A DNA stretch of 38,908 bases from Candidatus Doudnabacteria bacterium (GTDB taxonomy: Bacteria > Patescibacteriota > JABMPQ01 > JAGQLO01): contig JAGQLO010000010.1 of the NCBI GenBank assembly GCA_020429185.1, forward strand, positions 1 through 38,908, read 5' to 3'. Position numbers and translations under genes: made by a program. This document shows positions 2,286 through 5,302 of this stretch, piece by piece. Numbering within the stretch: position 1 is the first letter of the stretch; each line of letters opens with the position of its first letter. The notes below the pieces were generated by a model. It had not been told where the DNA came from and searched no databases. It saw nothing but the letters and a program-made list of their open reading frames with translations.

Positions 2286-2852
2286 TTACGCGAGTCGACT
2301 TCCTGCTTCGTTCCAGTCGATTGCGTTCATGAATGCGTCGATGTACTCACCGCGCTTCATACCATAGTCGAACGCAAACGCGTGCTCAAAGACATCCATG
2401 ATCAGTACAGGAGTTGCCCCGGAAAGGTGACCACCATCATGCTCGTTGATCCAAGTGTTCATGAGTTTTCCGCCAGCAACAGGGTCTGCATACAGCACTG
2501 CCCATCCAATACCACGCGCAGCACCTGTCGCCTTAAAGTCTTCTTCCCATGCAGACACAGATCCAAAGTCGCGCTCAATCGCCTTCAACAAGTCTCCTTC
2601 TGGACCATCTTGCGATTCGGAAGTCATATTGCCGAAGTAGAGTTCATGCAAGCGCATCCCATTAAACTCCCAGCCAAATCGGCGACGCACCTCGGCTGCC
2701 TCATACGACCCTTTCTCCAACGAAGAAAGAAGTTCGAGCACCTTATTCGTGTTCTTTACATACCCTTCATACAATCCAAAGTGTGTTTGAAGAGCCTCGT
2801 CAGAAAACCCAGTCGTTCCCAACAGGGAGGAAAAATCTTGTGCTTCGTACAT
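2286..2852 (-). CDS. Superoxide dismutase, Fe/Mn family
   Basis: This 188-residue protein converts superoxide to oxygen and hydrogen peroxide in the cytoplasm. The start is placed at MYEAQDFSSLLG because upstream in-frame codons run into the neighbouring terminator and encode nothing family-like. Metal ligands are visible: His24 (LQTHFGLYEGY), His69 (MRLHELYF), Asp153 and His157 (MDVFEHAFAFDYG). The C-terminus matches the family (GEYIDAFMNAIDW). At the outer-sphere position where Mn enzymes carry Gln (NQD), this protein reads NEHDGG, so His138 probably occupies that site. His at this position is known in some archaeal-type enzymes of the family; metal choice cannot be read from sequence. No signal peptide is present. 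Confidence 0.93.
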   Translation of the reverse strand: MYEAQDFSSLLGTTGFSDEALQTHFGLYEGYVKNTNKVLELLSSLEKGSYEAAEVRRRFGWEFNGMRLHELYFGNMTSESQDGPEGDLLKAIERDFGSVSAWEEDFKATGAARGIGWAVLYADPVAGGKLMNTWINEHDGGHLSGATPVLIMDVFEHAFAFDYGMKRGEYIDAFMNAIDWNEAGSRLA

Positions 2853-2871
2853 ACAAATAGGTAAATCAGTG

Positions 2872-2899
2872 TAGATACACGGTAGCGAAGCGTAGCAAA
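2872..2899 (-). promoter_or_regulatory. Possible promoter of the superoxide dismutase gene
   Basis: Minus strand: TTTGCT, 16 bp, TATCTA, about 20 bp before the ATG. Its -35 box overlaps the T-run of the upstream gene's terminator. An alternative -10 (TACACT) lies a few bases downstream, so the assignment is tentative. Confidence 0.35.
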
Positions 2900-2944
2900 A
2901 AAAAGAAGTCCTTCTCAATCGAGTTTCACCGATCGAAGAAGGAC
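2897..2944 (-). terminator. Intrinsic terminator spanning the stop codon of the phosphatase-fold gene
   Basis: On the minus strand, GTCCTTCT pairs with AGAAGGAC, extended by an inner ATCG/CGAT pairing, and is followed by T8. The last sense codons form the rising arm and the TGA stop (2926-2928) lies in the apical loop. Confidence 0.85.
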
Positions 2945-4017
2945 ACAACAACATCTGCTTCCGTGCGACCCGCCGCAAGGAAGAGCACAGGAAGACAGAT
3001 GTCTTGAATCTCGCCATCTACCCGGCGATACTGCGCGAACTTGAGAACGAGGTGATCGTCAAAGAAGTGCGAAGAAAGCCCAGCACTCCCGAACGAGGTC
3101 CACAGGTAGGGCATGCATCCGCCGGCGCGTTCCAGCAGCAACCAGGCAACCGCCAGCTCAAGATTGCCCTTGCGCGTACCCGTGCAGGAAAACAGCCTGC
3201 TCCCATGATCCAAGAACAAGCGTGCCAGATTGGTCACGCACGCCTCGTGGTCCACAGGCTGCAGCGGACAATCGAGCGCTTCCAGCCGATCCCAGAACAC
3301 GCGCCGCATCGGCTCGCGACCCACGAACCCGGGCAGGATCCCGAAGATCTGAGCAACACCATCGATGCCAAGATCGACGCTGATCTCGCTCGATCGATGC
3401 AAACGCTCAGATATGACGTCCGAGCGCCCGAGCACGATGTCGTTCAGATCCTCCCAAACGTCCTGTGGACCAGCGGAACCCACCCGATCCGCAAGGGTTC
3501 GCAAGAACGACTCACGAAGCGGCAACTTGTAGGTGCGCCGCCCGGCCACCGCAAACAGCGCCGTCTGAATGCCAGGCTCAACCACAGCAGCAAGCAACGC
3601 GTCCTTGTAGCGCGCTTGCACACCCTTGGCAAAGACGGCGAACATGGGACCGCCACGAAGTCCCTCGAGACTTCCGTGCTGCTTGAAATGCGCGAGACGA
3701 TGCGAACTCCCATCCCACCCGTCAAGCACGAGCAGAAATTCCGCGTGCGTCTCAGCATCACAATTCAGGCACATCCGCCCGTGCTCTTCGGACGTCACCA
3801 CAAAGGTGAAATTCGTCGCCTTCAGCGCTGCTAACACAGCAGCCTCGGTCTCAACGTCGAACCGATAAGGCATGTCGCCCATCGGATTGACCCGTTCCGA
3901 GGCCCTCCCATGAGCGTACGCGAGATCCCGCGCGTGCGTCTGATACAGGCGGGCGCACGCATCGATCGCGCGAACAAACCCAGCCATGAGATCCGGATGC
4001 ACCAACTGAGTTCCCAT
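2926..4017 (-). CDS. Divergent inositol monophosphatase/FBPase-fold protein
   Basis: This 363-residue protein shows the ordered metal-site motifs of Li+-sensitive sugar phosphatases in altered form. They are FDVETE (residues 53-58), the Glu pair in TSEEHG (about 77-78), LDGWDGSSH (about 98-106, matching DPLDGTxN) and GNLELAVAWLLLERAGG (about 284-300, matching WDxAAGxLIxxEAGG). The family removes phosphate from inositol phosphates, fructose-1,6-bisphosphate or PAP; the substrate here is unknown. It is about 100 residues longer than a typical inositol monophosphatase. The ATG at 4017 is chosen over an upstream GTG because GGGAG lies 6 nt before it. G+C is high (41 of 60 bases in 3301-3360), unlike its neighbours. 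It is a single-gene unit with its own promoter and terminator, possibly acquired. Confidence 0.7.
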   Translation of the reverse strand: MGTQLVHPDLMAGFVRAIDACARLYQTHARDLAYAHGRASERVNPMGDMPYRFDVETEAAVLAALKATNFTFVVTSEEHGRMCLNCDAETHAEFLLVLDGWDGSSHRLAHFKQHGSLEGLRGGPMFAVFAKGVQARYKDALLAAVVEPGIQTALFAVAGRRTYKLPLRESFLRTLADRVGSAGPQDVWEDLNDIVLGRSDVISERLHRSSEISVDLGIDGVAQIFGILPGFVGREPMRRVFWDRLEALDCPLQPVDHEACVTNLARLFLDHGSRLFSCTGTRKGNLELAVAWLLLERAGGCMPYLWTSFGSAGLSSHFFDDHLVLKFAQYRRVDGEIQDICLPVLFLAAGRTEADVVVSFFDR

Positions 4018-4089
4018 CGCCGTCTCCCAAGCGTTCCCCTCGGAACGCGCGTATAGAAAGAACACCCCAAAAAAAACTTCCGTAGCTAG

Positions 4090-4122: not shown

Positions 4123-4830
4123 CTAAACGTTCTTCAGAAGATCATCGTCATGCCCCTCCTCAAACCAGTCATCAAACGAAACTTTAGGCCCGTCGCCAGA
4201 TTCGATATCAGAATGCGTTCCATCACAGATCGGCATCGTACTGGACTTCCCGCATACACATTCGCGCCCAGCCTGAATCACTTCGCCTCCTTCCGGAACA
4301 CGATTCCGTTCAATGTAACTCTCGTACGCACGGTTCGCGCGCTCTAACGGTGTTTCTGTCAGATCAAGTTCGGCCAATTTCTGACGCATCTGCTCACGCA
4401 CACTCTCTGCTTCTTCTGGCGTGGCATCCTGAGAAAACTCCAGTACTTTTTCGTAGTCACGCGTATCATCGAGCGTCACATGTAAGTCATTCCAACGATA
4501 CGTCTTACGCTTCCGGAACCACGCGACATCAATTGGCCGTCCAACCAACTCCATAATACGGATCGCTTCCTGAAACGACTCTCGCGGAAACGGCACTTCA
4601 ACACGTTGCCGAGCAGGATCATGTACACGACCATCTTTTAAGACGAGTCGCGCACCATGCAACCCCTGTTGCAACCGAAGATCTTCCTTTCCTTTCAGGT
4701 ACAGCGTTTTTTGCTCGTCTTCATACAACAACTCAGCGTTCTCAGAAAAGAACCCCTCAAGTCGCGAGTACTCTGCATCTGTGAGAAAAACACGTACCTC
4801 TACCTCCTCTGTGTGTGATGACTGAGACAT
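4123..4830 (-). CDS. CYTH-domain protein fused to a CDGSH iron-sulfur motif
   Basis: This 235-residue protein has two parts. Residues 8-175 form a CYTH (CyaB/thiamine-triphosphatase-like) domain: the N-terminal signature EVEVRVF is an ExExR variant of ExExK, followed by alternating charged strands (YLKGKEDLRLQ, ARLVLKDGR, RKRKTYRWNDLHVTLDD) typical of the triphosphate tunnel. Residues 191-206 are a perfect CDGSH signature, CVCGKSSTMPICDGTH, whose Cys191, Cys193, Cys202 and His206 would bind one [2Fe-2S] cluster. A short acidic tail follows. CYTH enzymes act on triphosphates or cyclise ATP; CDGSH clusters are redox-active. Redox control of the CYTH domain is inference. The ATG lies 1 nt after the stop of the DNPH1-like gene, so the two are cotranscribed. 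The start at 4830 is preferred because upstream codons overlap that gene. Confidence 0.85.
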   Translation of the reverse strand: MSQSSHTEEVEVRVFLTDAEYSRLEGFFSENAELLYEDEQKTLYLKGKEDLRLQQGLHGARLVLKDGRVHDPARQRVEVPFPRESFQEAIRIMELVGRPIDVAWFRKRKTYRWNDLHVTLDDTRDYEKVLEFSQDATPEEAESVREQMRQKLAELDLTETPLERANRAYESYIERNRVPEGGEVIQAGRECVCGKSSTMPICDGTHSDIESGDGPKVSFDDWFEEGHDDDLLKNV

Positions 4831-4831
4831 G

Positions 4832-5272
4832 CTACTTCGTAAATTTCGCAAAAAAGGTATTAAAGATGGCCGGAATTTCGGAAAGGTCTTCGTAATCCGT
4901 CGTTTGAATCGCACGACTTCCCACAATCATCGAAGAAGGCTTTCCTCGCTCACCAGAAGCGCTCGGACGATACAACGCAAGAACGGGCACGTCACCACGC
5001 TCTGCAACACGCCCGAGTTCATACCCCACTCCCATACTCGTAACGGTCACCTCTGCCACAACGGCATCTGCCGAGAGGAGCCAGTCGACATCCCGATCGT
5101 GAATCTGTTTGTCGGTCATGCCTTTTCCAAGTTCACCGTACGTCGATAGCTCAGAATTACCGATATGTTCCGTAAGTACCTCGCCATAGTCAGCAAGCTG
5201 TTCAACAATCTGTACATACAGCGCTTGGTCAGAACGACCTCCCGCAATTGAACCAGCAAAGTATATTTTCAT
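4832..5272 (-). CDS. DNPH1/Rcl-like 2'-deoxynucleoside 5'-phosphate N-hydrolase
   Basis: This 146-residue protein resembles eukaryotic DNPH1 (Rcl) over its full length: KIYFAGSIAGGRSDQALY, YGEVLTEH, HDRDVDWLLSADAVVAEVT and SMGVGYELGR. Asp69 and Glu85 fall at the catalytic Asp and nucleophilic Glu of the nucleoside deoxyribosyltransferase superfamily. DNPH1 hydrolyses the glycosidic bond of deoxynucleoside monophosphates, including modified ones such as hydroxymethyl-dUMP, and so cleans the nucleotide pool. A deoxyribosyltransferase activity is the alternative. It is the first gene of a two-gene operon with the CYTH-CDGSH protein and is divergent from the DNA-repair gene mfd, with an inverted repeat between them. 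Confidence 0.85.
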   Translation of the reverse strand: MKIYFAGSIAGGRSDQALYVQIVEQLADYGEVLTEHIGNSELSTYGELGKGMTDKQIHDRDVDWLLSADAVVAEVTVTSMGVGYELGRVAERGDVPVLALYRPSASGERGKPSSMIVGSRAIQTTDYEDLSEIPAIFNTFFAKFTK

Positions 5273-5279
5273 AGAATCT

Positions 5280-5302
5280 TGTGTCAGACGGTACCTGACA
5301 CA
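5280..5302. repeat. Operator-like inverted repeat between DNPH1-like gene and mfd
   Basis: TGTGTCAG and CTGACACA are perfect 8-bp inverted arms around a 7-bp spacer. The repeat lies 7 bp upstream of the DNPH1-like ATG and about 20 bp upstream of the mfd -35 box. No T-run follows on either strand, so it looks like a protein-binding site rather than a terminator. Confidence 0.5.

Follow-up and report, generated by a model that had tools for sequence, protein, structure and literature searches.

A CYTH protein with a CDGSH-type tail, encoded next to a DNPH1-type gene in a Candidatus Doudnabacteria genome

A CYTH barrel is followed by a complete CDGSH motif in P0001, a 235-aa protein of a Candidatus Doudnabacteria bacterium (GCA_020429185.1, contig JAGQLO010000010.1). 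The families are known ones, but their combination in this fusion is new and comes from one genome. By its sequence, P0001 is a member of a CYTH subfamily common to DPANN archaea and Patescibacteria, and it is probably a fast-evolving CYTH-CISD protein that serves as a phosphate- or nucleotide-binding partner of the neighbouring DNPH1-type glycosidase (P0002) rather than as a normal triphosphatase. The source genome is a 908-kb MAG with a contamination of 0.07%, whose genus and family contain no second genome. All coordinates refer to the window, i.e., the whole stretch of 38,908 nt that was analyzed, in which the following features are discussed.

2286..3017, minus strand: Fe/Mn superoxide dismutase gene, downstream of P0001 (PF02777, E 3.5e-26); membership in the unit uncertain
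2926..4065, minus strand: FBPase/IMPase-like gene, downstream of P0001 (PF00316, E 1.7e-5, under cut-off); membership in the unit uncertain
4123..4830, minus strand: P0001, CYTH-CDGSH fusion, 235 aa, beginning 1 nt past the DNPH1 stop
4213..4260, minus strand: CDGSH motif of P0001, C191-H206 (PF09360; residue set according to PMC3174974)
4300..4809, minus strand: CYTH barrel, P0001 residues 8-177 (TIGR00318, homolog alignments, AF2, Foldseek)
4432..4440, minus strand: ExE motif of strand beta 8 of P0001, E131-F-S133 (alignments, motif list; role according to PMC8233210)
4832..5272, minus strand: P0002, predicted DNPH1-type 2'-deoxynucleoside 5'-monophosphate N-glycosidase, 146 aa (PF05014, E 2.5e-11; PDB phmmer, E 2e-31)
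5280..5302, no strand: perfect inverted repeat in the divergent DNPH1/mfd gap, TGTGTCAG-n7-CTGACACA

The sequence-only reading had placed a CYTH domain and a complete CDGSH motif in one protein, and this proved correct: P0001 is one open frame with an ATG start and zero internal stops, and the CYTH assignment is borne out by homologs, structural model and fold search. By codon usage, one frame scores best all the way from the ATG (4830) to the stop codon, continuously across the junction between the CYTH part and the tail, and the GC content is continuous there as well. A frameshift within the gene was rejected, since codon usage keeps the same frame through the junction, and no assembly error was detected. 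A 267-aa ORF starting at TTG 4926 overlaps the DNPH1 gene; translation of P0001 likely begins at the 4830 ATG. That an assembly artefact or frameshift fused two genes is very improbable; the fusion is known from a single MAG, in a genus and family with no second genome, but the unbroken codon-usage frame and GC content, the low contamination and the lack of any other CDGSH gene in the source genome all speak against such an origin.

The Pfam CYTH family (PF01928) gives P0001 no score, and the NCBIfam model TIGR00318 matches residues 9-163 under its cut-off (E 9e-6). The homolog L003, from the same order, is 33% identical to P0001 (E 9e-29) and itself matches PF01928 with 57 bits; homologs align with P0001 over residues 9-177. 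In an AF2 model built with 37 relatives, the barrel reached a pLDDT of ~90-98, and the best Foldseek matches of this model were the solved TTM/CYTH structures 1yem, 2dc4 and SaTTM (E 1e-8 to 1e-7; individually 4e-8 for 1yem and 1e-7 for SaTTM 7nsd). As modelled, the N-terminal part is confirmed as a genuine but divergent CYTH barrel with the TTM fold. The fold, the ExEx(K/R) start, the basic tunnel residues and the first Glu of ExE are common to P0001 and the CYTH/TTM enzymes (PF01928; 1yem, 2dc4, 2een, SaTTM 7ns8-7nsf). The differences comprise the subfamily traits ExExR and DLRIQ and, in P0001 alone, a Ser in place of the metal-2 Glu, together with the CDGSH tail. Similarly, CYTH-CHAD fusions of the YgiF type join a CYTH domain to a C-terminal partner, but the partner in P0001 is a predicted metal-cluster motif rather than CHAD.

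An alignment of the closest relatives, scanned against one genome per species (84,980 species), yielded 62 loci, which by their titles derive mostly from Woese-, Nano-, Pace- and Aenigmarchaeota and from Patescibacteria; a broader alignment was too variable for use in scans. The short CYTH subfamily as analyzed here consists of 66 loci (L141-L202 plus L095, L102, L106 and L114) and carries the signature ExExR - DLRIQ - GYGYIIELE. P0001 shares signature motifs and barrel with this subfamily, is 30-40% identical to its members across the entire barrel, and lies inside a 59-row clade (SH-aLRT 99), where its branch of 2.28 is among the longest, consistent with a changed function. In contrast to P0001, the subfamily members finish after the last helix (most at residue 172-188) with no CDGSH tail, and nearly all possess ExE and GYG. 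That DPANN archaea and Patescibacteria, both ultra-small, have this subfamily in common suggests that genes were exchanged between them.

Tunnel residues retained in P0001 include E9, E11, R13, R52, K65, E78, W104, R106, R108, D121 and E131. The ExExK site reads E9-V-E11-V-R13, with the Lys-to-Arg exchange typical of the whole subfamily. In TTM triphosphatases, the two Arg of xRxR serve the beta and gamma phosphates (PMC8233210); P0001 lacks this motif and reads D50-L-R52-L-Q54, with Gln for the second Arg as in the subfamily. R13 and Q54 were considered as signs of degeneration and rejected, both being normal within the subfamily. The ExE site differs: it reads E131-F-S133, and the second Glu, a metal-2 ligand on which the triphosphatase mechanism depends (PMC8233210), is replaced by Ser133. 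Glu is at least 90% conserved at this position in a 38-row alignment, and the sole other deviant among the members read through the region is L200 (EMK). The subfamily segment GYGYIIELE appears as DYEKVLEFS in P0001, so that the GYG turn is lost too. The original description of P0001 as triphosphate-acting thus conflicts with Ser133, at a position where its relatives keep Glu. Class IV adenylyl cyclase (CyaB) was tested by its signature (HFxxxxExExK, a small residue in place of the first Arg, and ExA) and rejected, as P0001 has Q3-S4 in the HF position, retains R52 and carries ExS rather than ExA. Thiamine triphosphatase (W/YxRxR) was likewise rejected in view of D50-L-R-L-Q.

The tail of P0001 reads C191-V-C-G-K-S-S-T-M-P-I-C-D-G-T-H206, a complete C-x-C-x2-S-x3-P-x-C-D-G-T-H motif. 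PF09360 matches no other protein of the 908-kb genome; its match to P0001 covers residues 191-207 and model positions 32-48 only (E 6.5e-6, 26.7 bits, cut-off 29.5). The strict motif is not due to chance: it arose in 0 of 200,000 shuffles of P0001, and a six-frame translation of 1.6 Mb of loci (those fetched for CDGSH set aside) contained it nowhere else. The residue set of CISD domains is C2, C4, S/T7, P11, C13, D14, G15, S/T/A16 and H17 (PMC3174974), and all nine are present (C191, C193, S196, P200, C202, D203, G204, T205 and H206); C191, C193, C202 and H206 are the predicted [2Fe-2S] ligands. Of the two hydrophobic CISD positions, position 12 is occupied by Ile201, and position 1 by Glu190, which is not hydrophobic. 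In a check for the P motif (GP-phi-x-phi) and the N-strand of CISD domains, the tail offered only the non-canonical VPEGG upstream and GPKVS downstream. In comparison with CISD types 1-7, including mitoNEET and Miner1/2 (PMC3174974), the tail thus shares the nine motif residues and the hydrophobic position 12, but is fused to CYTH, has Glu at position 1 and carries no canonical P motif on either side. It matches none of the seven described types; the fusions among these have DUF1271 as partner in type 7 and a domain of glutamate synthase in type 5 (PMC3174974). AF2 gave a pLDDT of 43 for the tail alone, modelled with stand-alone CDGSH proteins, and low confidence for the tail in the full protein. 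We infer that the tail holds a [2Fe-2S] cluster, with the caution imposed by the missing position-1 hydrophobic residue and canonical P motif. The source genome encodes two SufB/D-family proteins, which would serve to assemble clusters.

The gene next to P0001 had been called DNPH1-like and 1 nt away, and both points stand: P0002 and P0001 lie on the minus strand with an intergenic gap of 1 nt, and phmmer against the PDB matched P0002, a protein of the nucleoside deoxyribosyltransferase fold, to Rcl/DNPH1 over nearly its full length. When mapped onto human DNPH1 (PMC10603095), P0002 retains Y24, D80, E104, E55 and H56, in common with DNPH1/Rcl structures (4fyh, 9da1), so glycosidase chemistry is likely; P0002 is a true DNPH1 homolog. 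Unlike these proteins, P0002 has Ala at R30, a residue which in human DNPH1 helps base recognition (PMC10603095) and which is also Arg in the closest Patescibacteria homologs (L121-L123). The preferred base of P0002 may consequently not be hydroxymethyluracil. A second DNPH1-like paralog of the genome (L120; G000 C22) has Leu at the position of the E104 nucleophile and Phe at that of Y24, and by its sequence it probably lacks this kind of glycosidase activity.

The mfd gene is divergent from the DNPH1 gene, as initially reported, on the plus strand with a likely ATG at ~5357. The inverted repeat in the gap has no second exact copy in the genome; it is a possible operator or hairpin, and its assignment to the P0002-P0001 unit is a guess. 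Downstream of P0001, the superoxide dismutase gene is the second gene, after the intervening FBPase/IMPase-like gene, and a terminator-like hairpin (2276-2245) follows immediately. The FBPase/IMPase-like gene is a compositional outlier (GC 0.60; GC3 0.69, versus 0.42-0.55 in its neighbours), which makes a single oxidative-stress operon uncertain; with such composition, the gene was perhaps acquired laterally.

Neither the fusion nor the gene pair recurred in the searches. Within the short CYTH subfamily, none of the 66 loci encodes a fusion, although some (including those of Gracilibacteria) run into in-frame stops under table 11 and were covered by a six-frame motif search only, which misses a TGA-coded glycine. 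The fusion was also not found among 96 relatives, in the 7-genome order and 380 genomes of the phylum (PF09360 plus CYTH alignment), in 13 genomes of the nearest homolog's class, in two scans of genome contigs, or in two viral scans, phages and plasmids. The L203/L196 alignment seemed to continue beyond the stop of the CYTH gene and to reach the CDGSH part, but this extension was rejected, as it crosses three stops and overlaps another ORF. As for the pair, no CYTH lies within ~5 kb in any of 12 other DNPH1-family loci, and no DNPH1 accompanies any of the 66 CYTH subfamily loci; one of the latter (L102) has an NDT-like neighbour, a weak match only. The combination of CYTH and CDGSH is not described in the literature searched, in agreement with the earlier statement that no such enzyme was known. 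The proposed module, in contrast, is not shared by any other genome available for the search, in its fusion or in its neighbourhood, an outcome that the sequence-only reading had itself named as speaking against it. The domains, the undescribed fusion, the DNPH1 homolog and the downstream superoxide dismutase of the sequence-only reading are therefore retained, and its triphosphatase and conserved module are not.

Taken as a whole, the explanation preferred here, and held tentatively, is that of a subfamily CYTH protein with a CDGSH tail in which two-metal hydrolysis has been silenced and which binds a ligand and tunes DNPH1. In the P0001 lineage only, the tail was gained and the metal-2 Glu (now Ser133) and the GYG turn were lost, and translation of the protein would have become coupled to that of the dNMP N-glycosidase of DNPH1 type. 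The tunnel would still bind (poly)phosphate or a nucleotide, with no hydrolysis by normal two-metal TTM chemistry; ligand binding without normal turnover is thought likelier because the sole tailed copy is the one missing this Glu. CISD motifs come in pairs (PMC3174974), so that single-tailed P0001, if cluster-bearing, would dimerise, and its paired tails would hold [2Fe-2S] clusters in the manner of structurally known CISDs. P0001 would then assist or tune P0002, with the state of the cluster as input. The subfamily placement, the retained tunnel residues with Ser in place of E133, the long branch, nine of nine CISD residues, the two SufB/D-family proteins, the 1-nt gap and the conserved catalytic residues of DNPH1 support this explanation. 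The restriction of the fusion to one genome, the incomplete CISD features around the motif and the unfolded tail in AF2 weigh against it, and another carboxylate could compensate for the loss of E133. A more specific version, in which the silenced tunnel senses (deoxy)nucleotides or polyphosphate and a redox- or pH-labile [2Fe-2S] tail controls bound DNPH1, making a redox-gated sanitiser of the nucleotide pool, is a long shot.

The clean-up module proposed at the outset would require P0001 to be an active, cluster-gated (d)NTP triphosphatase supplying DNPH1 with oxidised deoxynucleotides, which the latter would destroy. Removal of the gamma-phosphate by a TTM enzyme yields an NDP, and the substrate of DNPH1 is an NMP, so that, with an active P0001 too, one step of a direct hand-over would be missing. 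With Ser133 in place of the metal-2 Glu and the pair missing from all other genomes searched, such a system is quite unlikely, despite the 1-nt coupling, the downstream superoxide dismutase gene, the retention of most tunnel residues and the thymidylate/dNTP genes adjoining CYTH relatives. The idea is plausible, yet not conserved in any other genome searched. The long branch, the lost catalytic Glu, the incomplete CISD features outside the motif and the non-conserved pairing would also befit a decaying paralog, whose CYTH function was lost under relaxed selection, with a transient tail and with DNPH1 co-transcribed incidentally in a compact genome. This appears unlikely, since the ORF is intact with normal codon usage throughout, and survival of all nine CISD residues and most tunnel residues is improbable by neutral drift.

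Alternatively, the tail could be a cluster carrier or dimerisation device for Fe-S or electron transfer, the CYTH part acting on polyphosphate or tripolyphosphate and DNPH1 being a mere operon neighbour. CISD proteins are redox active (PMC3174974), polyphosphatases occur among the characterised CYTH enzymes (PMC8233210), and the subfamily relatives L100 and L101 adjoin ferredoxin or NifU genes. The tight coupling to DNPH1 and the recurrence of deoxynucleotide genes beside CYTH relatives nevertheless make this, too, an unlikely account. If the tail carries a cluster, P0001 would combine CYTH with a redox cofactor in an architecture absent from the literature searched, and would give a first hint of redox input to nucleotide sanitation in a minimal genome.

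Broader leads than the fusion to a role of CYTH in deoxynucleotide metabolism come from the short subfamily and from a separate long-form clade linked to thyA, neither of which was described in a limited, targeted literature search. A looser form of the sequence-only reading holds, in that related CYTH genes of these small-genome lineages often adjoin thymidylate/dNTP genes: L095, of the same order as the source, has thyX-CYTH-tmk, and L104/L163 have dCMP deaminase-kinase-CYTH-dUTPase-thyA-DHFR-tmk, while dUTPase adjoins CYTH in L178, L190 and L194 (convergent). As the deoxynucleotide and replication settings are minorities of the 66 loci, they constitute a lead and not a test. CYTH as the missing dUTPase of dTMP operons is unsupported for the short subfamily, given the separate dUTPase of L104. 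In the source genome, thyA is on a different contig and thyX was not found.

The long-form clade, from Patescibacteria, consists of proteins of ~225 aa with ExExK/xR.../ExE largely intact. All 19 loci of the clade (L081-L094, L096, L097, L099, L103 and L107) have thyA next to the CYTH gene, usually with dcd, tmk and DHFR; near other CYTH genes thyA occurs in 1 of 29 (Fisher p 1.7e-12, overstated since related genomes are not independent). A possible function is that of an unrecognised triphosphatase of dTTP synthesis.

Other neighbours were also observed. Clamp-loader (RFC-like) genes lie near short CYTH genes in 11 loci, mostly archaeal (L159, L165, L166, L175, L176, L180, L181, L182, L201 and two more); some of these also have endonuclease III-like or FEN1-like genes farther away. 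Iron-sulfur or redox genes adjoin short CYTH in L100 (ferredoxin-thioredoxin protein), L101 (NifU and ferredoxin) and L144 (superoxide dismutase), few cases that could be due to chance. By sequence inspection, the second CYTH protein of the source genome (L119; G000 C40; 198 aa) is encoded between grpE-like and dnaK-like genes.
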